From Acidobacteriota bacterium (GTDB lineage Bacteria > Acidobacteriota > Thermoanaerobaculia > Thermoanaerobaculales > Thermoanaerobaculaceae), in NCBI GenBank assembly GCA_004298115.1, contig SCRJ01000003.1, forward strand, positions 1-35,817: DNA of 35,817 nt. Reading direction: 5' to 3'. The position numbers were made by a program, and so were the translations under genes. This document shows positions 3,156-26,806 of the stretch, one piece after another. The first letter of the stretch is position 1. Every line of letters starts with the position of its first letter. Below the pieces are notes generated by a model. It was not told the origin of the DNA, made no database searches, and saw only the letters and a list, made by a program, of their open reading frames with translations.

Positions 3156-3881
3156 TCAGGAACCCAGCCCGCCGTCGACGCGCAAGGTCGTACCCGTGAT
3201 GTAGGAGGCCGCGTCCGAGAGCAGGAACGCCACGGCCGCCGCCACCTCCGCGGGCCGGCCGAACCGGCCGAGGGGGATGCTGGCGACAGCGCGCGCCCGC
3301 CGCACCCCGCCGAGCCCTTCGACGAGGTCGGTGTCCACCCACCCCGGCACCACGGCGTTGACCGTGATCCCGTACCTTCCGACCTCACGGGCCAACGCCT
3401 TGCCGAAGGCGTGCAGGCCTCCCTTGGCGGCGGCATAGTTCGCCTGGCCTGCCTGGCCGGTGACGCCGGCCAGCGAGCCGACGTTCACGATCCGCCCGGC
3501 GTGGGCGTGCAGCATCGGCCGCATGAAGGCACGTGTGAGGCGGTAGGCCGCGGTCAGGACCGTGTCGACGACGACGTCCCAGCGCGGCTCGTCCATGAGG
3601 AGGAAATGTCCGTCGCGCAGGACGGCGGCGTTGTTCACGAGCGCGTAGATGCCGTCGCCGGCGATCGCCTCGACGACCGTCTCCACGGCCCGGGGGTCCG
3701 TGACGTCGCAGCGGTGCGCGACGGCCTCCCCTCCGTTCGTCGCGACGAGATCGGCCACGGTCCGGGCGGCGTCGTCGCGGCAGCGGTAGAGGAAGTGGAC
3801 GCGGTACCCGTCGGCCGCCAGCCGCTCGACGACGGCGCGTCCGATCCCCCGCGAGCCTCCGCTGACCACCGCGTTCAGCAT
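3156..3881 (-). CDS. SDR-family oxidoreductase, FabG-like
   Basis: 241-residue classical short-chain dehydrogenase/reductase. The N-terminal cofactor motif is SGGSRGIGR (residues 7-15), the adenine-ring motif is NNAA, the catalytic serine lies in NVGSLAG, and YAAAKGG holds the Tyr-x-x-x-Lys pair. The C-terminal ITGTTLRVDGGLGS is typical of FabG. The family reduces 3-oxoacyl-ACP or related ketones with NAD(P)H. A dedicated fatty-acid role is not shown because no fab or acp genes are adjacent, so it could act on another ketone, sugar or polyketide substrate. The ATG at 3881 is chosen over a TTG 12 codons upstream because the fold begins directly after it and a TACTCT -10 element lies 6 bases upstream. 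It follows the glycosyltransferase on the same strand with a 64-base gap. Confidence 0.88.
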   Translation of the reverse strand: MLNAVVSGGSRGIGRAVVERLAADGYRVHFLYRCRDDAARTVADLVATNGGEAVAHRCDVTDPRAVETVVEAIAGDGIYALVNNAAVLRDGHFLLMDEPRWDVVVDTVLTAAYRLTRAFMRPMLHAHAGRIVNVGSLAGVTGQAGQANYAAAKGGLHAFGKALAREVGRYGITVNAVVPGWVDTDLVEGLGGVRRARAVASIPLGRFGRPAEVAAAVAFLLSDAASYITGTTLRVDGGLGS

Positions 3882-3887
3882 CGCCTC

Positions 3888-3917
3888 AGAGTAGACCGGA
3901 TCGCGCCGCGGCCGCAA
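3888..3917 (-). promoter_or_regulatory. Candidate promoter for the SDR gene (leaderless)
   Basis: Read on the minus strand: TTGCGG (3917-3912), an 18-base spacer, then TACTCT (3893-3888), ending 6 bases before the ATG at 3881. The predicted transcript would start at the start codon. The -35 is a partial match. Confidence 0.4.
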
Positions 3918-3945
3918 TGGCGGGGCGCCACGGCGAGGTGGGCTC

Positions 3946-4698
3946 TCAAGCGAGAGCGCTCGTCATCGGCGCAACCACCGCCGGTGCGCTCACCAGGCGC
4001 TTCCAGGCCTCCGGCCCGGGGTCGTTGCGGAGGTCGCCCTCGTCGACCTTGAACCGGGCGGCCGAGAGCACGATGTGCACCGTATCCTGCATCGGCCGGT
4101 AGTGGGACGCGGCGCCGTCGTAGATCACCCTGACCGGGACGTGAGCGAAACGCGCGCGCAGCTTTCCCGCCCGGACGATGATCTCGGTGTCCACGGAGTA
4201 CCGGTTGCCGACCAGACCCATCCGCCGCAGGAACGGGGACGCCACCAGGCGGTAGCCGCACTGGGAGTCCTCCAGCGGAAACCCGGTCATCAGCTGCAGA
4301 GCGCGGGTGCCGATGAAATTGGTCCAGAAACGCCGCGCCGGGATCGCCTCGCGGTTCCAGAGCCGGTTTCCGAGCACGAAGTCGGCCTCCGGCGCGGCCT
4401 CGAGAAAGCGCTGGGCGTCGTCCGGGTCGTGCTGCCCGTCCGCGTCGAGCATCAAGATGTGCGAGTACGCCTGCCCGAGCAGGACGGCGAGGCCGGAGCG
4501 GACCGCCGGGCCCTTGCCGCGGTTCGCGGGATGAACGACCAGGCTCGCGCCGGCCGCGCGCGCCGCGTCGCCGGTACCGTCGGTGGAACCGTCGTCCACG
4601 ACGAGGACGTCCGGAACGTACTTGCCGACGCCGCGCACCACGCTCCCGACGCGGTCGGCACAGTTATACGCGGGGATCAGGGCGGCGATCGAGAGCAT
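3946..4698 (-). CDS. Family 2 glycosyltransferase (polyprenyl-phosphate sugar synthase-like)
   Basis: 250-residue GT-A fold glycosyltransferase. It shows IPAYNCADRVGSVV at the N terminus, VVDDGSTDGT (nucleotide binding), NRGKGPAVRSG, and the metal-binding DADGQHD (D85, D87), followed by a QCGYRL segment like the acceptor-side motif of dolichyl/undecaprenyl-phosphate mannosyl- or glucosyltransferases. Such enzymes move a sugar from a nucleotide sugar to a polyprenyl phosphate at the cytoplasmic face of the membrane. No C-terminal membrane helices are seen, so it resembles the short, single-domain DPM1 type. Donor and acceptor are not determined. The ATG at 4698 is preceded by an in-frame GTG at 4701; a TACACT -10 (complement of 4711-4716) sits 9 bases upstream of that GTG, so either start gives a very short leader. 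Phosphomannomutase nearby could feed its donor pathway. Confidence 0.85.
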   Translation of the reverse strand: MLSIAALIPAYNCADRVGSVVRGVGKYVPDVLVVDDGSTDGTGDAARAAGASLVVHPANRGKGPAVRSGLAVLLGQAYSHILMLDADGQHDPDDAQRFLEAAPEADFVLGNRLWNREAIPARRFWTNFIGTRALQLMTGFPLEDSQCGYRLVASPFLRRMGLVGNRYSVDTEIIVRAGKLRARFAHVPVRVIYDGAASHYRPMQDTVHIVLSAARFKVDEGDLRNDPGPEAWKRLVSAPAVVAPMTSALA

Positions 4699-12167: not shown

Positions 12168-12242
12168 CGACCCCTTCCGGGAGAGGTGTGTCTGCACTCG
12201 TGTGGGTGTAGCCTCGTTGTCGCAGAAATCCTGGAGGATGTC

Positions 12243-13526
12243 GTGAAACAGCTTCCCGTTGCTGTGTCGTTGTGCGTTCTATCCCTCTTTTTTCCCCGGG
12301 GCGCTCGTGCCGCAGCCCCGCCCGCGGCTCCGTCGGCCGGTATGGCGCTTGCGCCACCGGTCGAAACGCTGGTCGCCGCCGCCCTCGAGCGGGCCCCGTC
12401 GCTCGCGGCGCTGCGCTCGCGTCTGGCGGCCGCCCGCGAGCTGGTCGCGCCCGCCGGCGCGCTCCCCGACCCCATGGTCGAGATCGTGCTGCAGGACATG
12501 AGCTTTCCCAAGTGGACGGTCGGCAGCGACCAGATGTCGATGATCGGCCCCGAGGTGCGCCAGGACCTGCCCTGGCCCGGCAAGCGCGAGGCCCGGCGCG
12601 CGGCGGCCCGCGCCGCTGTCGCGTCGCGCGGTGCCGACGTGGAGCAGCTCAGACGCCAGGTCGCGATGCAGGTGCGCACGCTCTACGCCCGTGTCTTCGC
12701 CCTCGATCGCGAGCGGGCGTACCTCGACGCGGCGCGCGAGATGCTCGACATGCTGGCCGCCACCGCGGCGAGCCGATACTCGGCGGGCGAAGACAACCAG
12801 GAGCCGGTGCTCAAAGCCCAACTCGAGGCGTCCCGCCTCGGTGAGCGGACCGACGACCTGGCCGCCGAGCGGGCCACGCTCGTCGCGGCGCTCGACCGCC
12901 TGCTGGACCGCGACGGGAGCGAGCCTCTCGGCGGGGTGGCGTCGCTGCCCTCCGTGACGCCTCCCGCGCCTCCCTGGGATGAGCTGGCCGTCGCGCACTC
13001 CCCCGAGGTTGCCGTCCGCCAGGCGGAGGTGGCGGCAGCCGAGCGCCGGGCCGCGGTCGCGCGCCTCGACCTCAAACCCGACCTGACCACAGGGGTGGCG
13101 GTCGGCCTCAGAGGGGGTTTCGACCCCTCGGTGACGTTGAGTTTCGGTATGACACTGCCGGTATGGCGCCAGGAGAAGCAGGCGCCGCTGGCCCGTGCTG
13201 CAGACCTGGAGACCGAAGCCGCCCGCGCCGACCTGGAGGACGCCAAGATCCAAGCCCGCGCCGAGGCGGCCCGCGTTGCGGCCGAGTGGGACCGGGCCGG
13301 TCGCCAGGTCGAGCGCTACCGACAGGCGATCGTGCCACAGAGCTCCGCCACCGTGGACGCCGCCCGCGCCGCCTACCTCACCGGCCGGGGCGACTTCCTC
13401 ACGGTGGTCGACGACTTCAACCGCTGGCTGGACGCGCGCGTCCAGCTCGCCGCCCGCGAGGCGGACAGGTACTCGGCCTGGGCCCAGTTCCAGGCGCTCG
13501 CCGGCAGCACCGAGAAGGAGAACTGA
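12243..13526 (+). CDS. cusC: CusC/CzcC-type outer membrane efflux protein (TolC family)
   Basis: 427-residue outer-membrane factor that would form the trimeric exit duct of a tripartite metal pump. A signal peptide (residues ~1-24, hydrophobic core AVSLCVLSLFF, then ARA) is followed by two OEP repeats with long helical stretches. These include LVAAALERAPSLAALRSRLA, the IGPEVRQDLPWPGKRE segment typical of heavy-metal OEPs, and the second-repeat counterpart VTLSFGMTLPVWRQEKQAP. The GTG at 12243 is chosen because GGAGG lies 5 bases before it; sequence upstream in frame does not look like a signal peptide. The next gene (adaptor) begins 2 bases after the stop. Substrate is assigned from the CusA partner. 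Confidence 0.87.
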   Translation: MKQLPVAVSLCVLSLFFPRGARAAAPPAAPSAGMALAPPVETLVAAALERAPSLAALRSRLAAARELVAPAGALPDPMVEIVLQDMSFPKWTVGSDQMSMIGPEVRQDLPWPGKREARRAAARAAVASRGADVEQLRRQVAMQVRTLYARVFALDRERAYLDAAREMLDMLAATAASRYSAGEDNQEPVLKAQLEASRLGERTDDLAAERATLVAALDRLLDRDGSEPLGGVASLPSVTPPAPPWDELAVAHSPEVAVRQAEVAAAERRAAVARLDLKPDLTTGVAVGLRGGFDPSVTLSFGMTLPVWRQEKQAPLARAADLETEAARADLEDAKIQARAEAARVAAEWDRAGRQVERYRQAIVPQSSATVDAARAAYLTGRGDFLTVVDDFNRWLDARVQLAAREADRYSAWAQFQALAGSTEKEN

Positions 13527-13528
13527 AC

Positions 13529-15070
13529 ATGCTTCCCTCACGCTCGCTTCGCTCGATGGCCATGCCAGCCGCACTGGTCGCCGTCCTCGTTCTGTTCGTC
13601 ACTGCCTGCGGCGGGGGCGCTCAGACTTCCGCTCCGCCCGAGCGCAAGGTCCTCTTCTACCGCAACCCGATGGACCCGAAGGTCACCTCGCCGGTGCCGG
13701 CGAAGGACCAGATGGGTATGGATTACGTCCCGGTCTACGCCGACGAGGCGCCTCCCCAGAGCAGGACCGAAAGCAGGAAGGTCCTCTTCTACCGCAACCC
13801 GATGAACCCGAAGATCACCTCGCCGGTGCCGGCCAAGGACCAGATGGGCATGGATTACGTTCCGGTCTACGCCGACGAGGCAACTCCCCAGAGCGGGACC
13901 GAAAGCAGAAAGGTCCTCTTCTACCGCAACCCGATGGACCCGAAGGTCACCTCGCCGGTGCCGGCCAAGGACCAGATGGGCATGGATTACGTCCCGGTCT
14001 ACGCGGACGAGGGCGCGGCCCAGGGCCAGGGTATACCGGGTCTGGCCGCCGTGGAGGTAAGCCCCGAAGGTCTGCGCCTCGCGGGCGTGCAGGTGGTGGC
14101 CGCGGTCCGCGAGCCGCTCGCCCGCACAATCCGCACGGTGGGAACGGTCGTCCCCGACGAGACCCGAATCCGGCACTTCCACACGCGGGTGACCGGGTGG
14201 GTCGAAAAGCTCTACGTCGACTTCACCGGGCAGTACGTCCGGGAGGGGCAGCCGGTGCTGTCGCTCTACTCGCCGCAGCTCCTGGCGAGCCAGGAAGAGT
14301 ACCTGCAAGCCCGCGCGACGGCGGCACGCTTCGCCTCCTCCGACCTCCCGGAGGTCCGCAAAGGGGGCGAGGACCTGGTCGCGGCGGCACGCCGGCGCCT
14401 GCAGCTCCTCGACGTCCCCGACGACCTCATCGCCGAGATCGAGCGCACCGGCAAGCCCCAGCGCGACATCACGCTCCTCGCGCACGCCTCGGGGTACGTG
14501 ACGGCCAAGGGCATCTACCAGGGCCAGCAGGTCGACCCCTCGATGATGGACCTGTTCACCATCACCGACCTTTCGACCGTGTGGGTCGAGGGGCAGTTCT
14601 ACGAGTACGAAGCCCGCGCCGTGCACCTGGGCGAGGACGCGGTGGTCACGCTTCCGTACGACCCGGGCACGCGCCTCGCCGGTCGCGTGAGCTACGTCGA
14701 CCCCACACTCGATCCCCAGACCCGCACCCTGCGGGTACGCTTCGCCTTCGCCAACCCTGCCCTGGCGCTCAAGCCCGGGATGTTCGCCAACGTCGAGCTC
14801 GCGGTGGACGGCCACGAAGGGGTCGTGATCCCCGACTCCGCGGTGATCGACACCGGCCTGCGAAAGCTCGTGTTCGTGAGCCTGGGCAGCGGTCGCTTCG
14901 CGCCGCGCCAGGTCACGCTCGGCGTGCGCGGCAACGGCAAGGCCGAAGTGCTTTCGGGCGTCGCGGCCGGCGAGGAGGTTGTCGTGGGAGCGAACTTCCT
15001 CCTCGACTCCGAGTCGCAGCTCCGCGCCGCGATCGCCGGCGTCAGCGGCGCCGCCGGAGGCCCGCGATGA
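13529..15070 (+). CDS. cusB: CusB-type RND periplasmic adaptor with three heavy-metal-binding domains
   Basis: 513-residue membrane-fusion protein. It starts with a lipoprotein signal (hydrophobic AALVAVLVLF and lipobox VTAC, modified Cys at about 25). Three tandem 44-residue copies of a heavy-metal-binding domain (HMBD) follow at about 40-83, 84-127 and 128-165, each with YRNPM(D/N)P then KDQMGMDYVPVY. After them come the beta-barrel, lipoyl-like and alpha-hairpin parts of HlyD/CusB adaptors (ARTIRTVGTVVPDE; VTGWVEKLYVDFTGQYV; YSPQLLASQEEYLQA; LKPGMFANVELAV). In CusB the N-terminal Met-rich segment captures periplasmic Cu(I)/Ag(I) and hands it to CusA, and the repeated GMD-VP methionines here fit that. 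One HMBD is usual; three nearly identical copies are not. The start codon overlaps no gene, and the stop overlaps the cusA ATG. Confidence 0.92.
   Translation: MLPSRSLRSMAMPAALVAVLVLFVTACGGGAQTSAPPERKVLFYRNPMDPKVTSPVPAKDQMGMDYVPVYADEAPPQSRTESRKVLFYRNPMNPKITSPVPAKDQMGMDYVPVYADEATPQSGTESRKVLFYRNPMDPKVTSPVPAKDQMGMDYVPVYADEGAAQGQGIPGLAAVEVSPEGLRLAGVQVVAAVREPLARTIRTVGTVVPDETRIRHFHTRVTGWVEKLYVDFTGQYVREGQPVLSLYSPQLLASQEEYLQARATAARFASSDLPEVRKGGEDLVAAARRRLQLLDVPDDLIAEIERTGKPQRDITLLAHASGYVTAKGIYQGQQVDPSMMDLFTITDLSTVWVEGQFYEYEARAVHLGEDAVVTLPYDPGTRLAGRVSYVDPTLDPQTRTLRVRFAFANPALALKPGMFANVELAVDGHEGVVIPDSAVIDTGLRKLVFVSLGSGRFAPRQVTLGVRGNGKAEVLSGVAAGEEVVVGANFLLDSESQLRAAIAGVSGAAGGPR
13646..14041 (+). repeat. 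Three tandem 132-bp repeats encoding HMBD units
   Basis: In-frame tandem repeat with an exact 132-base period; the equivalent GTC codon falls at 13649, 13781 and 13913. Copies 1 and 2 differ at about nine positions by eye and include the linker (PQSxTESR). Copy 3 keeps the domain but diverges in the linker. This indicates recent duplication of a whole domain-plus-linker unit. Confidence 0.9.
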
Positions 15071-18000
15071 TCAAGAGGATCATCGAGTTCTCCGCCAAGA
15101 ACAGGGTCATGGTCCTGCTCGGCGTGGCCGTGCTCGGCGTCCTCGCCGTCTACACCTTGAAGGAGATCCGCCTCGACGCCCTCCCCGATCTCTCGGACAC
15201 CCAGGTCATCATCTACTCGCGCTGGGACCGCTCCCCCGACATCATCGAAGACCAGGTCACCTACCCGATCATCTCGGCGCTGCTCGGCGCGCCGGACGTC
15301 AAGGCGATCCGCGGCTTCTCCGATTTCGGGTTCTCGTACGTCTACGTGATCTTCAAGGACGGCACGGACCTCTACTGGGCGCGCTCCCGCGTCCTCGAGT
15401 ACCTCTCGAAGATCCAGGCCCGCCTGCCCGAGGGCGTGCGGACCGAGCTGGGGCCCGACGCCTCCGGTGTCGGTTGGGTCTTCCAGTACGCGCTCGTCGA
15501 CCGCTCGGGCACGCACTCCCTCGACCAGCTGCGCTCGTACCAGGACTGGACGCTGCGCTACGCCATCCAGGCGGTACCCGGCGTGGCCGAGGTCGCCTCG
15601 ATCGGCGGCTTCGTCAAGCAGTACCAGATCACGGTGGACCCCAACCGCCTCGCCGCGTACGGCCTCCCCCTCGATCGGGTCATCGACGCGATCCGCAAGT
15701 CGAACAACGAGGTGGGCGGACGCCTGCTGGAGTTCTCCGGCGCCGAGTACATGGTGCGGGGCGAGGGCTACGCCCGGTCGCTCGCCGACTTCGAAAAGGT
15801 GGTCGTGAAGGTCGGGCCCGGGGGGGTGCCGGTGCTGCTCCGCGACATCGCCCGCGTCGAGTTGGGCCCGGAGATCCGACGCGGCATCGCCGACCTCGAC
15901 GGCCTCGGGGATCACGTCGGCGGCATCGTGGTGATGCGCCAGGGCGAGAACGCCCTCAACGTCATCGACCGGGTCAAGGCCAAGCTCAAGGACCTCGAGC
16001 CCTCGATGCCCTCCGGGGTCCAGGTCGTCGCCACCTACGACCGCTCCGACCTGATCACGCGCGCCATCGACACGCTCAAGCACGAGCTGACCGTCGAGAT
16101 GATCATCGTCGCTCTCGTCATCCTGCTCTTCCTCTGGCACATCCCCTCGGCGCTGGTGCCGATCTTCACCATCCCGGTCTCGGTCCTGCTCGCGTTCATC
16201 CCCCTCTACTACATGGGGGTGACCGTCAACATCATGTCGCTGTCCGGGATCGCGATCTCGATCGGGATCCTCGTGGACGGCGCCATCGTCGAGGTCGAGA
16301 ACGCCTACAACAAGCTGCATCAGTGGGAGGCCGGAGGCCGCAAGGGCGACTTCCACGCGGTCCGCCTGGAGGCTCTCAAAGAGGTCGGCCCGTCGGTGTT
16401 CTTCTCGCTGCTGGTGATCGCGGTGGCGTTCCTGCCGGTGTTCGCGCTGGTGGACCAGGAGGGCCGGCTGTTCAAGCCGCTCGCCTACTCCAAGAACCTG
16501 GCGATGGCGATCGCCTCGCTGCTCGCCATCACCCTCGACCCGGCGATGCGGATGCTGTTCACGCGCATGGACCCGTTCACCTTCAAGCCGCGGTTCCTCT
16601 CGTGGTTCGCGACCAAGGCCTTCGTAGGCACCTACTACGCGGAAGAGAAACACCCGATCAGCCGCGTCCTGTTCGCGGTCTACGAGCCCGCCTGCCGGTT
16701 CGTGCTGCGGTTCCCCAAGGCGGTCATCGCCACCGCCATCGCTCTGGTGGCGATCAGCGTCCCGTTCTACTTCAAGCTCGGGACGGAGTTCATGCCCCCG
16801 CTCAACGAGGGCACGATCCTCTATATGCCGACGACGCTGCCGGGGATCTCGGTGCAGCAGGCCGGGGAGCTGCTCAAGTCGGAGGACAAGGTCCTCAAGT
16901 CGTTCCCGGAGGTCGAAAGGGTCTTCGGCAAGGCCGGGCGCGCAGAGACCTCCACCGACCCGGCGCCGTTCTCGATGATGGAGACGACGGTGGTCCTCAA
17001 GCCCGAGGACCAGTGGGAGCCGAAGACGCGGTGGTACTCGTCGTGGGCGCCGGGCTGGTTCAAGTCGGTCGCGCGACCGATCTGGTCCGACCACATCTCC
17101 TGGGAAGAGTTGGTCGCCAAATTCGACCGCGCGCTGAAGATCCCCGGCGTCACCAACGCCTGGACGATGCCGATCAAGGCGCGCATCGACATGCTTTCCA
17201 CCGGGGTGCGGACACCGGTCGGCATCAAGATCTTCGGCGCGGACCTCAAGGAGATCGAGCGCATCGGCGAGCAGCTCGAGGGCATCCTCCGCAACGTCCC
17301 GGGAACGCGCAGCGTGTTCGCCGAGCGCGTGGCCGGCGGGTACTTCGTGGACATCGTGCCGCGGCGCGACGAGCTGGCCCGGTACGGCCTCACCATCGGC
17401 CAGGTGCAGGACGTGATCCAGAGCGCGGTGGGCGGCGAGAACGTCACCACCACGATCGAGGGGCGCGAGCGCTACCCCGTCAACGTGCGCTACCCGCGGG
17501 AGCTGCGCGACAACGTGGACCGCCTCGGCCGGGTGCTCGTGACGGCGCCCGGCGGCGCCCAGATCCCGCTGGCGCAGCTCGCCGACATCCAGCTCGTCCA
17601 GGGCCCGGCGATGATCCGCGACGAGAACGGCTTCCTCGCCGGCTACGTCTACGTCGACATCGCCGGCCGCGACGTCGGCGGCTACGTGGAGGAGGCCAGG
17701 AAGCTGGTGCGCGACAAGCTCGCCCTCCCCCAGGGGTACGTCCTTTCCTGGTCGGGCCAGTACGAGAACATGATCAGGGTGCGCGAGCGTCTCAAGGTCG
17801 TCGTGCCGATCACGCTGGTGTTGATCTTCGTGCTCCTGTATATGAACACTAAGTCCGCGTTCAAGGCGGCGGTCGTCATGATGGCGGTGCCGTTCTCGGC
17901 GATCGGCGCGATCTGGCTCTTCCACTTCCTGCATTACAACGTCTCGATCGCGGCGTGGGTCGGAATGATCGCGCTCCTCGGCCTCGACGCCGAGACCGGC

Positions 18001-18321
18001 GTGTTCATGCTCCTCTTCCTCGACCTGTCGTACGACGACTACAAGCAGCGCGGGCTGCTCCGTACCCGCGCCGACCTCGACGAGGCGATCGTGCACGGCG
18101 CGGTCAAGCGGGTGCGGCCGAAGATGATGACCGTCACCGCCGCGTTCGCCGGCCTGCTGCCGATCATGTGGTCCACCTCGGCGGGCGCGGACGTCATGAA
18201 GCGCATCGCCGCCCCGATGATCGGCGGCCTCGTGACCTCGTTCCTCCTCGAGCTGCTCGTCTACCCCGCGATCTACAAGCTGTGGAAGGGCCGCACGGTC
18301 GTCGGCGAGGTCACCTCATGA
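15067..18321 (+). CDS. cusA: CusA-type heavy-metal RND transporter
   Basis: 1084-residue HME-RND inner-membrane pump that drives Cu(I)/Ag(I) export with the proton gradient as a trimer. It begins with MIKRIIEFSAKNRVMVLLG (TM1) and DALPDLSDTQVI, and contains two large periplasmic loops and 12 TM segments. The methionine triad known from E. coli CusA (M573, M623, M672) is matched in context by M587 (LYMPTTLPG), M637 (FSMMETT) and M709 (RIDMLSTG), which points to Cu/Ag rather than Zn/Co/Ni. Proton-relay acids are kept in ILVDGAIVEVENA (TM4) and LDAETGVFML (TM10). About 23 residues are inserted between the second and third methionine regions relative to E. coli, including a WYSSWAPGWFK stretch. 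ATG overlaps the cusB stop (ATGA). Confidence 0.95.
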   Translation: MIKRIIEFSAKNRVMVLLGVAVLGVLAVYTLKEIRLDALPDLSDTQVIIYSRWDRSPDIIEDQVTYPIISALLGAPDVKAIRGFSDFGFSYVYVIFKDGTDLYWARSRVLEYLSKIQARLPEGVRTELGPDASGVGWVFQYALVDRSGTHSLDQLRSYQDWTLRYAIQAVPGVAEVASIGGFVKQYQITVDPNRLAAYGLPLDRVIDAIRKSNNEVGGRLLEFSGAEYMVRGEGYARSLADFEKVVVKVGPGGVPVLLRDIARVELGPEIRRGIADLDGLGDHVGGIVVMRQGENALNVIDRVKAKLKDLEPSMPSGVQVVATYDRSDLITRAIDTLKHELTVEMIIVALVILLFLWHIPSALVPIFTIPVSVLLAFIPLYYMGVTVNIMSLSGIAISIGILVDGAIVEVENAYNKLHQWEAGGRKGDFHAVRLEALKEVGPSVFFSLLVIAVAFLPVFALVDQEGRLFKPLAYSKNLAMAIASLLAITLDPAMRMLFTRMDPFTFKPRFLSWFATKAFVGTYYAEEKHPISRVLFAVYEPACRFVLRFPKAVIATAIALVAISVPFYFKLGTEFMPPLNEGTILYMPTTLPGISVQQAGELLKSEDKVLKSFPEVERVFGKAGRAETSTDPAPFSMMETTVVLKPEDQWEPKTRWYSSWAPGWFKSVARPIWSDHISWEELVAKFDRALKIPGVTNAWTMPIKARIDMLSTGVRTPVGIKIFGADLKEIERIGEQLEGILRNVPGTRSVFAERVAGGYFVDIVPRRDELARYGLTIGQVQDVIQSAVGGENVTTTIEGRERYPVNVRYPRELRDNVDRLGRVLVTAPGGAQIPLAQLADIQLVQGPAMIRDENGFLAGYVYVDIAGRDVGGYVEEARKLVRDKLALPQGYVLSWSGQYENMIRVRERLKVVVPITLVLIFVLLYMNTKSAFKAAVVMMAVPFSAIGAIWLFHFLHYNVSIAAWVGMIALLGLDAETGVFMLLFLDLSYDDYKQRGLLRTRADLDEAIVHGAVKRVRPKMMTVTAAFAGLLPIMWSTSAGADVMKRIAAPMIGGLVTSFLLELLVYPAIYKLWKGRTVVGEVTS

Positions 18322-18455: not shown

Positions 18456-18710
18456 ATGGCGAACGACGAGAAGCGATCACAGAAGGGGCCCGTCGGGGAC
18501 GACACCTCATCTCCGATGACGCGCTGGCTCACGAATGCTCCGTGGCTCCTGCTGGTTGCCGGGATGTTCCCCAGCGTGATCGTCGCCGTGACCGCGATCG
18601 CGACGCTGCCGCCGCTCCCAGCCAGACCTGACCGTGCCCCGAGGTGTGTCGCCGCCGCGACGCTCTCCTGCCGCGCGTCATGTCGCCTACCTTGGGTGGC
18701 GCAGACATGA
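18456..18710 (+). CDS. Small putative membrane protein (doubtful)
   Basis: Possible 84-residue protein: a charged N terminus (MANDEKRSQKG), one likely transmembrane helix (about 30-50, WLLLVAGMFPSVIVAVTAIA) and a Cys-containing tail (CVAAATLSCRASC). No family is recognised. A purine-rich GGAAGGGA lies upstream of the ATG, and the stop overlaps the kinase ATG at 18707 (ATGA), which argues for coupling. The same frame is open back to an ATGA overlap with cusA at 18318. The tail after residue ~55 looks poorly coding. It may be a real small gene, a decayed one, or chance. Confidence 0.3.
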   Translation: MANDEKRSQKGPVGDDTSSPMTRWLTNAPWLLLVAGMFPSVIVAVTAIATLPPLPARPDRAPRCVAAATLSCRASCRLPWVAQT

Positions 18711-19909
18711 CAGAGCCGATCGTCATCTCGGCGTTCGGTGGTCTCGAGTCCCGCCGCGACCACGCGGAGACGGTCGGCCGCGACGGGCGAGACGATCCGT
18801 CCCCCGGACGGGGAGGTGGTTCACACGGAGCGGTGCAGCTACGGCACAACGCGCTCCTGACGGCCCTCTACGCTGTTTTCGGGCTGGCCTTCGGGTTTGC
18901 CGTGCTCCACCCGGTCTCGATGATTATCTTTCGCTGGTTCGACCCGCGCCTTTCGGGCTCGATGACGAACCCCTCCGAATCGATTCTGACGCCGTTCTTT
19001 CACGCCTTTCAGCCAGACATGGCACCGATGGGACTCGTCTTCGGCCTGTTCAGCGCCGGGATCGCGGTGATCGACGGCGTCTATCGCCTCCGCCTGGCCC
19101 GGCAGCGAGACCGTCTCGCCGCTCAGCTCCTCGTCAACCGTCGCTATCGCAACGAGCTGCTGCAACAAGCAAACCTCCTTCGGCGGCAGAACGAGCGTCT
19201 GTCGGCGATGGAGGAAGCCAACCGCCGGCACACCCGTTTCATGGTTCACGATTTCAAGGGTCACCTGCAAACGATCTTGGGCTTCTCGGAGGTACTGCTC
19301 AGCAAGGTCAAGCCCGAGGACGATCCTTCCACGACCGATGCCCTGCGTCGCATCCGCCAGCAAGCCAACAAGATGTCCGGGGCCGTGATGGACCTGCTGG
19401 AGTTCTCGAGGCTGAGGGAGTCGCAGCAGCTCCAGCTGCGGTTCGTCGAGGTCGAAGGACTCGTTCGCGAGTCGGCAGCCGACGGTTGCCTGCCGACCCA
19501 TCTCGGATCCGTGGAAGTTGGCCCTGCAAGGGCGAGCTGCCCAGGTGTGATGGCTGATCCCGACCTTCTGCGACGCGTCCTCGTCAACCTCGCCGCAAAC
19601 GCCCTCAGGCACAACCGGCCGGGGACCCGGGTCGTGCTCGACGCCGAAGCGACGCCACGGGGAGAGGTGGTCTTCTCGTGCACGGATGACGGACAGGGAG
19701 TTCCGCCGGAGATCAAGGAGCGGTTGTTTCGGGATTATGCCAGGGGGGATCGCTCGGTCGATCGTGAATCGACCGGGCTCGGTCTTGCGTTCTGCAAGGC
19801 GGCGGTTGAGGCCCATGGCGGGCGCATTTGGCACGAGAGCCCCGGAGGCCAGGGCGCACGCTTCCTCTTCACCATTCCGCAGGGGCGAAAGGACATTGAA
19901 AATGACTGA
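18707..19909 (+). CDS. Sensor histidine kinase
   Basis: 400-residue kinase with two transmembrane helices (about 49-72 and 108-126) separated by only ~35 residues, so the extracytoplasmic sensor loop is very small. A coiled coil (~130-178, LLQQANLLRRQNERLSAMEE) links to the HisKA domain with the phospho-accepting H181 (MVHDFKGHLQTI). The ATPase domain shows the N box (NLAANALRHN), G1 (DDGQGVPPEI) and G2 (GLGLAFCKAAVEAHGG). It should phosphorylate the response regulator whose start codon lies 8 bases inside its 3' end. Position behind the copper pump suggests metal or envelope sensing, but no metal-binding motif is evident in the loop. ATG at 18707 is chosen; 18680 is an alternative. Confidence 0.9.
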   Translation: MTEPIVISAFGGLESRRDHAETVGRDGRDDPSPGRGGGSHGAVQLRHNALLTALYAVFGLAFGFAVLHPVSMIIFRWFDPRLSGSMTNPSESILTPFFHAFQPDMAPMGLVFGLFSAGIAVIDGVYRLRLARQRDRLAAQLLVNRRYRNELLQQANLLRRQNERLSAMEEANRRHTRFMVHDFKGHLQTILGFSEVLLSKVKPEDDPSTTDALRRIRQQANKMSGAVMDLLEFSRLRESQQLQLRFVEVEGLVRESAADGCLPTHLGSVEVGPARASCPGVMADPDLLRRVLVNLAANALRHNRPGTRVVLDAEATPRGEVVFSCTDDGQGVPPEIKERLFRDYARGDRSVDRESTGLGLAFCKAAVEAHGGRIWHESPGGQGARFLFTIPQGRKDIEND

Positions 19910-20333
19910 TGGAAAGCAGCCCACCATTCTCGTCGTCGATGATGACGTCGACTTCGTCGCGTTCGTTGCGACGGTGCTCGACGGCGCAGGGTTCAGGGTA
20001 ATCACCGCGTATGACGGCGTCGAAGGTCTCGAACGGGCCAGGGAGACCCTGCCGGACCTCGTGACTCTCGATATCCAGATGCCGCGCAAGACCGGTGTGC
20101 TGTTCTATCGCCAGTTCAAAGCGGACGCTCGGCTGCGTTCGGTTCCGGTCGTGATCGCCACCGGCTTGCGCCAGGCGAATTCGTATGCTGCGCCGTTCGT
20201 CGATGCCTTCTTCGAGTTCAACGATCCCGCGATCCCCAAGCCGGATGCCTTTCTGGACAAGCCCTTCGACAAGGAGTCGTTGCTGTCGCTCGTGCGGGCG
20301 AAGCTCGCGGCGCCTAGGAAGCCGGAGCCATGA
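19902..20333 (+). CDS. Receiver-only response regulator
   Basis: 143-residue single receiver domain with acidic pocket DDD (about 12-14), phospho-acceptor D57 (TLDIQMPRKTG), T87 and K120 (LDKPF). No DNA-binding or enzymatic output domain follows. The distance from the conserved Thr to the Lys is 33 residues against 22 in CheY, so the alpha4 region carries an insertion of about 11 residues (PFVDAFFEFNDPAIPKPDA). The ATG lies within the last codons of the kinase gene (8-base overlap), showing that the two form a pair. Output must be through protein contact, for example with a second regulator or phosphorelay not present here. Confidence 0.9.
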   Translation: MTDGKQPTILVVDDDVDFVAFVATVLDGAGFRVITAYDGVEGLERARETLPDLVTLDIQMPRKTGVLFYRQFKADARLRSVPVVIATGLRQANSYAAPFVDAFFEFNDPAIPKPDAFLDKPFDKESLLSLVRAKLAAPRKPEP

Positions 20334-20493: not shown

Positions 20494-21114
20494 GTGAGGA
20501 AACTTGGAGCCGTTTTCGCGGCGCTGGCCCTCGTAGCGCTGGCCGCCGGGGCTGTTGCTCTGAAGCTCACGCTTGACCACGGATTCAGCGCCAGGGACAA
20601 GCCCACCGCCGTGGAGAAACTCATCGCGCGGCGCTTGCGCTACATGTCCATTCCCCGGGCCCACACGCTGGCCAAGAACCCGGTACCCCTGACTCCGGAG
20701 GTCCTGGAGCGGGCCCGGGCCCACTTCGCGGACCACTGCGCGTCCTGCCATGGCAACGACGGCAGGGGAAACACCACCATCGGCCGGAACCTGTACCCAA
20801 AGCCCCCGGACATGACGCTGAAGGACACGCAGGACCTGCCCGACGGGCATCTCTTCTACATCATCAAGAACGGCGTGCGTCTCACCGGGATGCCGGCCTG
20901 GGGGCAGAACACGCCCGAGGACGACCGCGAGACGTGGGAGCTCGTCCACTTCATCCGTCACCTCCCGCACATCACGGACAAAGAACTGGCGCAGATGGAA
21001 GAGCTCAACCCCAAGAGCCCACAGGAGTGGGAACAAGAGGAGGCAGAGAAAAGGTTCTTGGCTGGGGGGAGCGCAACGCCGCCCTCACCCCGAGGAACGC
21101 TTGATCAGCACTAG
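20494..21114 (+). CDS. Membrane-anchored monohaem cytochrome c
   Basis: 206-residue class I-like cytochrome c. An uncleaved signal anchor or signal peptide (residues ~5-25) is followed by the haem-binding C82-A-S-C85-H86, and the likely axial ligand is M133 in TGMPAWGQ. A charged C-terminal tail (ELAQMEELNPKSPQEWEQEEAEKR split by helices) extends past the haem fold. It resembles the c-type subunits that accompany periplasmic oxidases or act as small electron carriers. The GTG start has a strong GGGGAGGAG Shine-Dalgarno sequence immediately upstream (20485-20490 area). Next to copper-handling genes it might accept electrons from, or be exposed to, a periplasmic cuprous/cupric couple, but this is inference. 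Confidence 0.88.
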   Translation: MRKLGAVFAALALVALAAGAVALKLTLDHGFSARDKPTAVEKLIARRLRYMSIPRAHTLAKNPVPLTPEVLERARAHFADHCASCHGNDGRGNTTIGRNLYPKPPDMTLKDTQDLPDGHLFYIIKNGVRLTGMPAWGQNTPEDDRETWELVHFIRHLPHITDKELAQMEELNPKSPQEWEQEEAEKRFLAGGSATPPSPRGTLDQH

Positions 21115-21129
21115 GAAAGGGAGAGCACC

Positions 21130-21441
21130 ATGAAGAGGATCGCCGCAAGTCTGGCCTTTGTTGCCGCCCTCACCGTCCCGGCTCTGTTGCTGGCGCACGA
21201 AGGGCACACCCATCATGTCATGGGCACCGTCAACGCAATATCCGCAACCAACATCGACGTGAAGGACTCGAGCGGCAAGGTGGTGTCGTGTCAGCTCACC
21301 ACCGACACCAAGTTCCGTCGCGAGGAGGCGAACGTGACCGCGGCCGACGTCATGGTGGGCGAGCGTGTCGTCGTCGAAGCCGCCGAAGCGGACGGCAAGA
21401 TGATCGCCAAGCTGGTCCTGCTTGGGAAGATGAACATGTAG
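21130..21441 (+). CDS. Small exported His-rich protein (DUF5666-like)
   Basis: 103-residue protein with a Sec signal peptide (MKRIAASLAFVAALTVPALLLA) whose predicted mature end starts with the His cluster HEGHTHHVMG. The remaining ~75 residues form alternating strands (VMGTVNAISATNIDVKDSSG; TTDTKFRREE; VGERVVVEA) like the small OB-type DUF5666 domain, ending in KMNM. Periplasmic metal binding by the N-terminal histidines and methionines is plausible from sequence but unproven. It follows the cytochrome gene by 15 bases with an AAGGGAGAG ribosome site, so the two are probably one transcript. Confidence 0.78.
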   Translation: MKRIAASLAFVAALTVPALLLAHEGHTHHVMGTVNAISATNIDVKDSSGKVVSCQLTTDTKFRREEANVTAADVMVGERVVVEAAEADGKMIAKLVLLGKMNM

Positions 21442-21518
21442 GAGCCGACCAGGTGAGTCACTCCCCTGCTCCAGATTGACGGCGTCCGATCGGCGCAGGG
21501 CGGCGGTTGTTTCTCTAG

Positions 21519-21547
21519 TTGACTTTGAAGAGATATGGTGTCAGTAT
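21519..21547 (+). promoter_or_regulatory. Candidate promoter before the Met-rich propeller gene
   Basis: TTGACT (21519-21524), 17-base spacer, CAGTAT (21542-21547), in a relatively AT-rich 178-base gap. The octamer ATGGTGTC occurs twice, at 21535-21542 and 21560-21567 (25 bases apart), one copy in the spacer and one just past the predicted start of transcription, as an operator pair might. Confidence 0.4.
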
Positions 21548-21619
21548 CCCAACGCGAGATGGTGTCGCGTTCTCTCCAACGCCGTACGGGACGGATTTAT
21601 GGAAGACGAGAGGTCCATC

Positions 21620-22309
21620 ATGAACAGGTTGAAGTTCTTTGCACTCGCAGCGGCCACCGCGCTGCTGCCGTTGCTCGCCTCGGCGCAGGGGATGATGAGC
21701 GGCGGGGCCGGGACGCCGAACGGGACGGGGATGGTGACCGTCGCCAGCGACGGCTCGGTGCTGGTGACGCAGATGGGGATGACGATGATGGGCAGCCCCG
21801 GCGGTAGTGGCAGCGCGTCGCTGCAGCGCGCGGTCGTCGACCTGGGGGCGACCGGCAGCCAGCGCTGGCGGGCGACGTTCACGAACGGCTGGCCGATGAT
21901 GGCGGGCTCCAACGGCGACCTCGTCGTGGTCGTCGTCCTCAACAACGCCTGGATGTGGCGCTCGCTCTCCGGCATGGGGTGGTTCCCGTTTGGCACCACG
22001 CCGCCGAGTGGTACGCAGGCCGCCTCCCTCGTCGGGCTCGACCTCGCGACCGGCGCCCAGCGCTGGAGCACGACGCTCCCCGGCGACATGGGCTCGTACC
22101 CGCAGTTCTCCACCGACGGCAGCCGGATCTACACCTCGGTCACCAGCTTCGGGCAGGCCGGCATGATGGGGAGCGGTTCCATGATGCAGGGAGACACGGG
22201 CAACTGGGCGACCCAGATGACCAACACGATCGTCGCCCTCGACCGCTCCGGAAACATTCTGTGGACGACCGACCTGTCGCAGTCGGGCGGCGGGATGATG
22301 ACGCCATGA
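21620..22309 (+). CDS. Exported Met-rich PQQ-type beta-propeller fragment protein
   Basis: 229-residue exported protein. A signal peptide (about 1-22, ending LLASAQG) leads into a Met/Gly-rich mature N terminus (GMMSGG; then TQMGMTMMGSPGG). Next come blade-like repeats that alternate GLDLATGAQRWSTTLPG and IVALDRSGNILWTTDL, typical of PQQ/quinoprotein-like propellers. There are at most three to four blades, too few for a closed 6-8-blade ring, so it is either a short member or acts as a multimer. Met clusters recur (GQAGMMGSGSMMQG; GGGMMTP) and could bind Cu(I). ATG at 21620 is preceded by AGAGG. The stop overlaps the next gene's ATG (ATGA). Confidence 0.7.
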   Translation: MNRLKFFALAAATALLPLLASAQGMMSGGAGTPNGTGMVTVASDGSVLVTQMGMTMMGSPGGSGSASLQRAVVDLGATGSQRWRATFTNGWPMMAGSNGDLVVVVVLNNAWMWRSLSGMGWFPFGTTPPSGTQAASLVGLDLATGAQRWSTTLPGDMGSYPQFSTDGSRIYTSVTSFGQAGMMGSGSMMQGDTGNWATQMTNTIVALDRSGNILWTTDLSQSGGGMMTP

Positions 22310-23103
22310 CGACGCCCCGCACCTTCCGGCGCAGCATCCTCGCCCTCGCGGGAGCGGCTGTCCTCGCGGCGCTCCCCGCGGCGGCGGCCCCGGCCGGCCA
22401 CCTCGAGGGCTACGTCCTGGCGGCCGCCCACCTCCCCGGCTACTCCGGCTCGTACTGGACGACGGACCTCTGGATCTACACGGAGTCGGCCACGACCATC
22501 GACCTCTGGTACAACCGCAGCGGCAACGACAACACCAGCGTGCAGAGCGTCGTCATCCCCCTCACCCAGCCGGTGACGTTCCTGCCGGACGTCGTGGCCA
22601 ACACGTTCCACGCCGCCGGTACGAAGGGGTCGGTCCATTACCTCGCGAACGGGCTGGTGGAGGTCGTCGCCAAGACGTGGACTCCCGGGCCGACCGGGGG
22701 CACGTTCGGGCAGGTCGCCGACGGGATGCCGGTGGCGCTGGCGTCCACTCCCGGCGCCGGGCCCGACGGCTCGCTGCGGATGTTGGTCAACCAGACGCCG
22801 AGCTCCCGCGTCAACCTCGGCCTCGTGAACGTGACCGGGAGCCCGGTGACCGTGAGCGTGGAGATCGACACCGCCGACGGCCAGCCCGCGCCGGGGACCT
22901 CCACGTTCACCGTGAACCTGCAGCCGTACGACATGCAGGAGAAGGACAAGATCCTCGCCGGCCTCACCGCGGCGACGAGCCAGGGCTTGATCGTGCGCGC
23001 CGGCGTCAGTTCGGGGAACGGCGCGTTCCTCGCGTATCTGTCGGAAGTGGACAACACGACCAACGCCCCGGCGACCCAGGAAGGTTTCAGGTTCGGCTAC
23101 TGA
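22306..23103 (+). CDS. Exported beta-rich protein of unknown function
   Basis: 265-residue protein with a signal peptide (about 1-28, ending PAAAAPAG) and a body of short beta strands with YSGSYWTTDLWIYTESAT and LVNVTGSPVTVSVEIDTADGQ. This two-sandwich layout resembles uncharacterised exported proteins common in Acidobacteriota (my recollection, not searched). No catalytic or metal motif is visible; only one cysteine or none is present in the mature part, unlike its neighbours. Its ATG overlaps the stop of the Met-rich propeller gene, so the two products are made together and may interact. Confidence 0.68.
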   Translation: MTTPRTFRRSILALAGAAVLAALPAAAAPAGHLEGYVLAAAHLPGYSGSYWTTDLWIYTESATTIDLWYNRSGNDNTSVQSVVIPLTQPVTFLPDVVANTFHAAGTKGSVHYLANGLVEVVAKTWTPGPTGGTFGQVADGMPVALASTPGAGPDGSLRMLVNQTPSSRVNLGLVNVTGSPVTVSVEIDTADGQPAPGTSTFTVNLQPYDMQEKDKILAGLTAATSQGLIVRAGVSSGNGAFLAYLSEVDNTTNAPATQEGFRFGY

Positions 23104-23155
23104 CGGCGCCGCGGCCCGCGCCGCCGCGCCCGGGAACAGGAAGGACGACCTCGAG

Positions 23156-23608
23156 ATGAGGAACAGAATCGTTGCAGTGGCGGCGGCGGCCGTGATGCTT
23201 GCGGCCGTCGCCATCGCCGCGGGCACCCCGGCCGCGGCACCGCCTCCCAAGCCGCAGACCACCTGCCCGGTCACGGGCAAGCCGATCGACCCGAAGACCA
23301 GCCCGCACGTCGACTGGCAGGGGCAGCGGATCTACTTCGCCGATGCGGCGGCCGCGGGCACGTTCCGCGAGGACCCCGAGAAGGTGTTCGCGGCGATCGC
23401 GGCGGAGGGCGTCACCCTGCAGAATATCCAGACCGTCTGCCCGGTCTCCGGCGAGAAGCTCGAGGGCGGCGAGATGGGCGAGCCGGTGAGCCTCGTCTAC
23501 AAGGGGCGCACGATCCGCTTCTGCTGTCCGATGTGCCCGCCCCAGTTCGAGAAGGACCCCGCCAAGTACCTGGCGAAGTTGCCGGGCGAGCAGAACGGCG
23601 CGAGGTAG
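23156..23608 (+). CDS. Exported double YHS/TRASH-like Cys protein
   Basis: 150-residue exported protein. After a signal peptide (about 1-22) it carries two YHS/TRASH-like units: TCPVTGKPIDPK with HVDWQGQRIYFAD (about 36-65) and VCPVSGEKLEGG followed by YKGRTIRFCCPMCPPQFEKDP (about 97-140). YHS/TRASH domains bind metals through paired cysteines in copper and heavy-metal proteins. The second unit has the full CP..G / FCCPxC pattern, while the first has lost its second Cys pair. It is likely periplasmic and a candidate metal sink or chaperone. AGGAAGG precedes the ATG. It ends the rightward exported-protein run before the CDF-like gene. Confidence 0.78.
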   Translation: MRNRIVAVAAAAVMLAAVAIAAGTPAAAPPPKPQTTCPVTGKPIDPKTSPHVDWQGQRIYFADAAAAGTFREDPEKVFAAIAAEGVTLQNIQTVCPVSGEKLEGGEMGEPVSLVYKGRTIRFCCPMCPPQFEKDPAKYLAKLPGEQNGAR

Positions 23609-24890: not shown

Positions 24891-25730
24891 ATGTCAAATC
24901 AGGAGATCAAGAGCTCGGTGCGCGCGCACTACGCGTCGATTGCCCGGCAGAGCACGGGCTGTTGCGGCCCGGCCGGCTCCGGCGGTGGCTGCTGCGGCAC
25001 CTCGGCCCCGGTCGCGATCAGCAAGGAGGTCGGCTACACCGACGCCGACCTGGCCGCCGTTCCGGAGGGGTCGAACCTGGGCCTCGGCTGCGGCAACCCC
25101 CTCGCGTTCGCCGCGCTCGCCGCCGGCGACGTCGTCGTCGACCTCGGCTCCGGGGCCGGCTTCGACTGCTTCCTCGCCGCCCGCCGGGTGGGGGCGAACG
25201 GCCGGGTGATCGGCGTGGACATGACGCCGGAGATGCTCGACCGGGCGCGCCGCAACGCCGCGCTGGACGGCGTCGCCAACGTCGAGTTCCGCCTCGGGGA
25301 GATCGAAAACCTTCCGGTCGCGGACGCGACGGCCGACGTCGTGATCTCGAACTGCGTCATCAACCTCTCGACCGACAAGCCGCGCGTCTTCCGCGAGGCG
25401 CTGCGGGTGCTCAAGCCCGGCGGGCGGCTCATGGTCTCGGACCTGGTGCTCGCCCGTCCCCTCCCGGACAGCGTGGCGCGCTCGGTGGCCGCATATGCGG
25501 GCTGTATCGCGGGGGCGATGCTCAAGGACGACTACCTCGCCGCCATCCGCGCCGCGGGTTTCGTGGATGTGGAGGTGCTGGCGGAATCGGGCTACGACAT
25601 CGGCGGCGCGAACGCTGACGACACTGAGACGGCACTGCTCGAGGCCACGGGAACGACCCCGGAGGAAGCGCGCGCGGCGGCGGACGCGGTGCGCAGCGTC
25701 AAGGTCTCGGCGAGGAAAGGAGCGCTTTGA
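24891..25730 (+). CDS. arsM: Arsenite S-adenosylmethyltransferase ArsM
   Basis: 279-residue SAM-dependent enzyme that methylates As(III) to mono-, di- and trimethyl arsenicals in the cytoplasm. The three conserved As-ligand cysteines of the family are present: C67 (GLGCGNP), C155 (SNCVINLS) and C205 (YAGCIAGA). The SAM motif is VVDLGSGAGFDCFLAA. The N-terminal cysteine clusters STGCCGPAG and GGCCGTS (about 22-37) may hand over arsenic. Length is as expected. It starts 3 bases after arsR and its stop overlaps the arsP ATG (TGATG), so all three genes are one operon. Confidence 0.96.
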   Translation: MSNQEIKSSVRAHYASIARQSTGCCGPAGSGGGCCGTSAPVAISKEVGYTDADLAAVPEGSNLGLGCGNPLAFAALAAGDVVVDLGSGAGFDCFLAARRVGANGRVIGVDMTPEMLDRARRNAALDGVANVEFRLGEIENLPVADATADVVISNCVINLSTDKPRVFREALRVLKPGGRLMVSDLVLARPLPDSVARSVAAYAGCIAGAMLKDDYLAAIRAAGFVDVEVLAESGYDIGGANADDTETALLEATGTTPEEARAAADAVRSVKVSARKGAL

Positions 25731-26806
25731 TGGCGGCGTCCGCCGGTGCGGTGGCGGCGGTCGCTCACGACCGGGCCGCCCGATGGCGAAGGCGGCTCGT
25801 CGGAGCGGCCTTCGCCTTGCTGGGAGCCGCGCTCTGGGCGGGGCTGTACGTCATCCTCGCTCCCATCGCGCGTGCCCTGACCTACCGGCTCTTGGCGCTG
25901 GCCCCGGGATCCCATCTCGCCTTGGCGGTGGAGTTCTTCGCCTTCGAGGCGCCCAAGGTGCTCATGCTCCTCCTCCTCGTGGTCTTCGGGGTGGGCGTCG
26001 TGCGCTCGTTCTTCACGCCCGAGCGCACCCGGCGGATCCTGGCCGGCACGCACGAGTCGGTCGGCAACGTGCTCGCGGCCCTGCTCGGCGTCGTGACTCC
26101 GTTCTGCTCGTGCTCGGCCGTGCCGCTGTTCATCGGCTTCGTGACCACCGGCGTTCCGCTCGGCGTGACGTTCTCCTTCCTGGTGGCGGCACCGATGATC
26201 AACGAGGTCGCTCTCGTGCTCCTGTTCGGCCTCTTCGGCTGGAAGGTCGCCGCCGTCTACATGGGGACGGGCCTGGCCATCGCCATGGGCTCGGGTTGGG
26301 TGATCGGCCGCCTGCGGATGGAGCGCCACGTGGAGCCGTGGGTGTACGAGATGAAGTCCGGGGCCGCCGCCGACGGCGCCGGCCCGACCACCTGGGCCGA
26401 CCGTGCCCGTTTCGGGCTCGAGGCCGTGCGTGAGATCGTCGGCAAGGTGTGGCCGTACGTGCTGGCCGGGATCGCCGTCGGGGCCGGCATCCACGGGTGG
26501 GTGCCGACGAACTTCATGGCCTCGTTCATGGGCAAGGGCGTGTGGTGGGGGGTGCCGCTCGCCGTGTTGATCGGCGTCCCGATGTACTCCAACGCCGCCG
26601 GTATCATCCCGATCGTCAGCGCGCTGCTCGAGAAGGGCGCCGCCCTCGGCACCGTGCTCGCCTTCATGATGGCGGTCATCGGCCTCTCGTTCCCGGAGAC
26701 GATCATCCTGCGCAAGGTGCTGCGCCCGCGTCTGATCGCGACGTTCGTCGGCGTCGTCGCCGCCGGCATCCTGACTGTCGGCTTCCTGTTCAACGCCCTG
26801 TTCTAG
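25730..26806 (+). CDS. arsP: ArsP-type organoarsenical permease
   Basis: 358-residue permease of the DUF318/YraQ/ArsP family with about eight to ten transmembrane helices. The signature TPFCSCSAVPLF has C126 and C128, and a second loop reads IGVPMYSNAAGIIPI. ArsP exports trivalent methylarsenite and aromatic arsenicals. Because arsM makes methylarsenite, placement directly after arsM is the expected partnership and strengthens ArsP over other YraQ-family roles. The ATG at 25730 shares its A with the arsM TGA stop. The 3' end overlaps the convergent hydrolase by 17 bases. Confidence 0.9.
   Translation: MAASAGAVAAVAHDRAARWRRRLVGAAFALLGAALWAGLYVILAPIARALTYRLLALAPGSHLALAVEFFAFEAPKVLMLLLLVVFGVGVVRSFFTPERTRRILAGTHESVGNVLAALLGVVTPFCSCSAVPLFIGFVTTGVPLGVTFSFLVAAPMINEVALVLLFGLFGWKVAAVYMGTGLAIAMGSGWVIGRLRMERHVEPWVYEMKSGAAADGAGPTTWADRARFGLEAVREIVGKVWPYVLAGIAVGAGIHGWVPTNFMASFMGKGVWWGVPLAVLIGVPMYSNAAGIIPIVSALLEKGAALGTVLAFMMAVIGLSFPETIILRKVLRPRLIATFVGVVAAGILTVGFLFNALF

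Follow-up and report, generated by a model that had tools for sequence, protein, structure and literature searches.

Copper defence is known mostly from Pseudomonadota, and the described systems closest to the locus analysed here are CusCFBA of E. coli, the clusters of CopA/PcoA multicopper oxidase (MCO) and CopB, and the histidine-brace copper proteins, which include CopC, DUF1775/YcnI and DUF6702. In the E. coli pump, the Cu(I) ligands of CusA are M573, M623, E625 and M672 (PMC8092243). The window, meaning the whole 35,817-nucleotide stretch of DNA analysed, is a contig of a 3.97 Mb Acidobacteriota MAG (G000; 96% complete), with Acidobacteria bacterium 37-71-11 among its nearest named relatives. 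Like CusCFBA, it has a CusCBA pump with the Met triad kept, adjoined by genes for small exported copper-binding candidates. Unlike CusCFBA, none of the five proteins encoded beside the pump (P1 to P5) matched the CusF family (CusF_Ec profile, no match at E ≤ 1), P2, P3-P4 and P5 standing instead, and its regulator has no detected DNA-binding domain. The genes are arranged as follows:

CusC-like TolC-family outer-membrane channel: 12186..13526, + strand (Pfam OEP, E 6e-38)
CusB-like periplasmic adaptor: 13538..15070, + strand (HlyD_D23, E 6e-74)
RND permease of CusA type, Met triad conserved: 15070..18321, + strand (TIGR00914)
Membrane histidine kinase: 18710..19909, + strand (Pfam HisKA and HATPase)
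Response regulator, receiver-domain match only: 19899..20333, + strand (Pfam Response_reg)
P1, exported or anchored monohaem cytochrome c, module 1: 20494..21114, + strand (Cytochrome_CBB3)
P2, small exported DUF5666-like protein, module 1: 21130..21441, + strand (His predicted at the mature N-terminus, HEGHTHHVMGTV)
P3, Met-rich exported propeller of BamB/PQQ type, short (3-4 blades), module 2: 21620..22309, + strand (PQQ_2)
P4, exported two-domain beta protein, module 2: 22306..23103, + strand (adjacency to P3; unmatched in Pfam and NCBIfam)
P5, exported double YHS protein with a degenerate first YHS, module 3: 23156..23608, + strand (YHS, E 1e-9)

The CusCBA pump and the five genes beside it

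An earlier note on this DNA had placed five consecutive rightward genes for exported proteins between a Cu(I)/Ag(I) RND pump and arsenic genes. All five ORFs are present at 20494-23608, with CusCBA upstream and CDF, ArsR, ArsM and ArsP_1 genes downstream, and most of its descriptions of single proteins were borne out. P1 is a haem c protein, with a CASCH haem-c motif, a GMPAWG axial-Met region and a Cytochrome_CBB3 match (E 1e-12), and the proposed HEGHTHH start of mature P2 agrees with the predicted mature sequence, signal-peptide cleavage sites having been read by eye from the sequence. P3, called a short propeller with Met clusters, starts at the ATG at 21620, matches PQQ_2 (28.5 bits, just above the cut-off of 27.6) and contains 8.7% Met, no Cys and no His, most neighbours having 1.4-3.4% Met; P4 is coupled to it by an ATGA overlap at 22306-22309. 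The ArsP_1 permease (25730-26806) adjoins arsR and arsM, and its nearest models, SaoE and SO_0444 Cu/Zn efflux, were both below cut-off. A sigma-70 promoter scan gave no signal above chance, and a tRNA scan of the window found none.

The window CusA scored 1081 bits against TIGR00914 (cut-off 701), and its residues M586, M636, E638 and M708 align with the four E. coli Cu(I) ligands M573, M623, E625 and M672, respectively. Because of this score and these aligned ligands, the pump is, by its sequence, a true CusA of the Cu(I)/Ag(I) type. The CusB-like adaptor reached 195 bits against CusB NF007303, below the cut-off of 390; at its N-terminus (~13640-13990) lie three near-identical tandem repeats (VLFYRNPMDPKVTSPVPAKDQMGMDYVPVYADE) resembling heavy-metal-binding domains. 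The kinase pair noted beside the pump is present as histidine kinase and response regulator genes, but Pfam found no DNA-binding output domain in 19686-20333. Response_reg was the sole Pfam match of the regulator, and its best NCBIfam model, DVU0259, was below cut-off. With a receiver-domain match only, the regulator is therefore no transcription factor of the CusR kind. The membrane N-terminus of its partner kinase is unusual.

Comparison with relatives splits the gene set beside the pump, and the five genes are therefore three separately inherited copper-linked modules, not one cassette. Gene content, modularity, copper-gene linkage, residue conservation and the CusA ligands were all computed. 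A periplasmic copper/silver role is likely for the modules, for which we infer a chemistry of metal binding, electron transfer and delivery to the pump. In broad terms the function proposed by the earlier note holds up, but its grouping of the five genes as a unit does not. We consider it fairly probable that the stretch at 20494-23608 consists of three independently inherited periplasmic copper/silver defence modules stacked on the CusCBA pump. If confirmed, this would add three protein modules to the copper defence of a major, poorly cultured soil phylum and would make a widespread cytochrome and His-first protein pair directly testable as a unit that oxidises or relays copper. The DUF5666-like, Met-rich short propeller and double YHS families, whose link to copper is absent from the parts of the literature covered by our searches, would also gain functional leads.

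Copper neighbourhoods of the P3-P4 pair

P3 shares detectable profile and fold similarity with BamB and PQQ-type propellers, but differs from them in amounting to only about half a propeller, in its Met/Gly-rich loops and in adjoining a metal pump. Its structure model (pTM 0.65, 11 strands) matched, at Z 13-15, BamB as well as fragments of designed propellers with 3 or 4 blades, the structure models being of middling confidence (pLDDT 66-69). Because of the 11 strands and the match to BamB and to 3- or 4-blade fragments, P3 looks like a half-propeller in this model, and may pair with itself. No report of a Met-rich propeller in copper resistance was found in the literature searched.

Searches with each of P1 to P5 covered 60 relatives. 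P3 was present in 15 genomes (G000 included), belonging to two families of one order, and in 15/15 of them P3 was followed directly, on its own strand, by the best P4 match. A 297-genome sample of the phylum yielded P3 in the same order only, barring one weak stop-containing match, and none was found on plasmids. A CusA-family (TIGR00914) gene lay within 5 kb of P3 in 9 of the 13 testable loci, with G004, G007, G017 and G033 taken as failures; the naive binomial probability of such linkage by chance is ~1e-11 to 1e-10, with the relatedness of the loci ignored. In the second family, P3-P4 was accompanied by CusA and/or DUF3347 genes, sometimes by DUF302, and P5 was absent.

In the three-module reading, the Met-rich loops of the secreted half-propeller P3 would act as a Cu(I)/Ag(I) buffer close to the pump, and P4 would be a beta-sandwich that scaffolds or partners P3. 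A somewhat unlikely alternative restricts the copper proteins to P5 and P1-P2 and takes P3-P4 as an envelope-associated pair, a BamB-like propeller with an ASRT/TM1070-like sandwich, that rides in resistance islands, the Met richness of P3 reflecting flexible Gly/Met loops. The P3 orthologues bear on both readings: their Met content ranges over 4-11% and falls in some, down to 9 Met in L034, as the alternative would have it, but Met 38, 52 and 93 are invariant and Met 94 and 157 nearly so. The neighbourhoods are likewise divided, since the stretches read around P3-P4 in G004 and G033 revealed no CusA-family gene, but the pair adjoins CusA-family genes in two families and DUF3347 genes as well in the second, which argues for a tie to copper.

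A further point for an envelope role comes from P4, a member of a large generic exported family. P4 had no Pfam or NCBIfam match, and P4-like proteins are far commoner than P3, with 14 copies in G000. Because of these 14 paralogues, together with the lack of Cys and the few Met or His residues, P4 is probably structural as judged from its composition, and it was set aside as a metal protein. The earlier note had Met, His and Cys ligands recurring in otherwise unrelated proteins of the block; P4 is an unlikely metal binder. The N-domain of the P4 model (pLDDT 66) resembled TM1070 (ASRT-like fold) at Z 11.3 over 111 residues (rmsd 4.3), and the C-domain gave generic fold matches only. RbmA, among the top Foldseek hits, was set aside as a fold relative (TM 0.18), and a PDB sequence search with P4 returned no credible match.

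Several further observations were made on these families. P4-like beta domains form an exported family that reaches 35 copies in relatives, and at times several repeats share a single long frame; no Pfam family was found for those tested. Second-family P3 orthologues (L033-L040) mostly carry AHGGGM after the signal peptide, so that a mature N-terminal His may occur there too. In L032, an exported protein that seems to resemble P3 but is devoid of the Met clusters (3394-4068) shares a contig with a P3-P4-P5 block. A 54-bp coding tandem repeat (AFIAAAKDQNFEALVKNP) occupies positions 1-259 of L030, at the contig start and ~5 kb before a P3-P4-P5 block.

The P1-P2 pair and the multicopper oxidase

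P1 and P2 form a separate phylum-wide pair that recurs beside copper genes. The P1-type cytochrome, with the conserved pattern GFSARD..CASCHGNDG..GMPAWG, was found in 46 of 396 phylum genomes; a His-rich C-terminal tail is frequent in P1 relatives and is down to one His in the window P1. Forty of the phylum-survey loci and 7 loci from the class made up the P1 locus set (n=47), and in 36 of these a short exported His-first ORF lay directly 3' of P1, frequently with an ATGA overlap, a His-first start having been no criterion when that ORF was picked. Within the 42 loci of at least 10 kb from other genomes, 30 had a copper gene (MCO, CopB, CusA or CopA ATPase) within ~8 kb and 12 had none of those tested; of 40 control stretches, taken from these or comparable genomes, 2 had such a gene (Fisher p=1.6e-10, kinship ignored). 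On plasmids of Methylophaga and Legionella, too, P1-like cytochromes lie in copAB/cus clusters.

The predicted mature N-terminus of P2 follows the motif HxG[HM]xHxMGT, and A22 and H23, between which the cleavage site was placed by eye, were invariant in 10/10 aligned orthologues. P2 scored 24.3 bits against DUF5666 (PF18914), below the gathering cut-off of 27, and its orthologue in L128 reached 31.5 bits, above it. A relationship to CusF found no support when the P2 profile was compared with that of a CusF-domain protein (4% probability, no match), and a PDB sequence search with P2 found no credible match. Titles and abstract openings of the DUF5666 papers found contain no mention of copper. 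Like the histidine-brace proteins CopC, DUF1775/YcnI and DUF6702, P2 is small and exported, has a conserved predicted mature N-terminal His and occurs in copper gene neighbourhoods; unlike them, it is DUF5666-like rather than cupredoxin-like, DUF1775 or DUF6702. A DUF1775 gene lies close to two P1-P2 loci, and the DUF1775 protein YcnI binds Cu(II) via its N-terminal His (PMC8424229).

As for CopA/PcoA multicopper oxidase-CopB clusters, relatives of P1-P2 in other Acidobacteriota immediately follow MCO and TolC genes or stand near CopB and CopA ATPase genes. L086, L087 and L091, from other families of the class, show an MCO gene followed directly by P1 and then by P2. Unlike in such clusters, no PF07732 MCO was found here or in most same-genus relatives, and the cytochrome and His-first protein are kept alone. 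PF07732 (Cu-oxidase_3) proteins numbered zero in G000, G003, G005 and G007, and G006, of the same genus, had two matches. As none was found in G000, P1-P2 is therefore kept there without its frequent companion oxidase. The supposed lack of copA, pcoA and cueO genes was accordingly right for multicopper oxidases genome-wide, but a CopA-type P-type ATPase is encoded on another contig of G000.

In the three-module reading, exported P2 would bind copper through its mature N-terminal His and the following His/Met residues, and P1 would take up the electron on Cu(I) oxidation and pass it to respiration. In relatives with a multicopper oxidase, P1-P2 probably serves that enzyme; in the window genome, where no oxidase was found, the pair may work alone. 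We offer only tentatively, as an unlikely reading, that P1-P2 is a minimal cuprous-oxidase module, the His-first DUF5666-like protein binding periplasmic copper and a dedicated cytochrome c taking the Cu(I) electron. If true, copper would be detoxified by oxidation with neither a multicopper oxidase nor direct use of oxygen, and such detoxification would be spread across Acidobacteriota. That the modules instead supply copper to cuproenzymes, for example to load respiratory oxidases, is quite unlikely: P1 resembles respiratory cytochromes c, and DUF1775/YcnI, found among the neighbours, is linked to copper uptake (PMC8424229), but the neighbouring CusCBA, CopA ATPase, MCO and CopB genes are export or resistance genes.

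P5 and the inheritance of the modules

P5 matches YHS (PF04945) with 38.6 bits (cut-off 30.3). Its description as a double YHS Cys protein held for the two YHS-like halves but not for all of the Cys, as the first half has lost the CC motif in this genus (FCC -> FAD). The second domain keeps C95, C123, C124 and C127 and so shares the Cys pattern of YHS/TRASH metal-binding domains, from which P5 differs in being an exported tandem with a degenerate first domain in this genus. In the three-module reading, the intact second YHS domain would hold Cu(I)/Ag(I) by Cys and hand it to the CusBA pump. P5 is widespread in the family and is often the gene that directly follows cusCBA, whether or not P3-P4 is present; in G008, G011, G014 and G016, where P3 is absent, it sits right after cusA or no more than 2.5 kb from it.

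The order cusCBA-HK-RR-P1-P2-P3-P4-P5 of G000 is repeated in G005 from cusA onwards, where the contig starts, and in G007 a CopA-ATPase-HK-RR stretch precedes P1-P2-P3-P4-P5. Genomes G003, G006 and G010 show the order cusCBA-P3-P4-P5, and the second family shows cusCBA/DUF3347-P3-P4. The co-occurrence with cusCBA expected by the earlier note was thus recovered module by module, with P3-P4(-P5) beside a CusA-family gene in two families, P5 beside one even without P3-P4, and P1-P2 linked to copper genes across the phylum, but not for the block as a unit, as all five genes occur together only in G000, G005 and G007 among the 60 relatives. A single dedicated copper-delivery cassette, working as one functional unit with the pump, is very unlikely: the genes are consecutive in G000 and G005 and in order in G007, with close spacing and the ATGA overlap, but the modules are inherited apart and each travels alone elsewhere, with P3-P4-P5 lacking P1-P2 in G003, G004, G006 and G010, the second family having P3-P4 but no P5, many genomes having P5 by itself and P1-P2 standing alone across the phylum. 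In another phylum, a TolC-RND-multicopper oxidase cluster on the Phycisphaera plasmid pPSMK1 (L106) is immediately preceded by a gene for a double-YHS protein.
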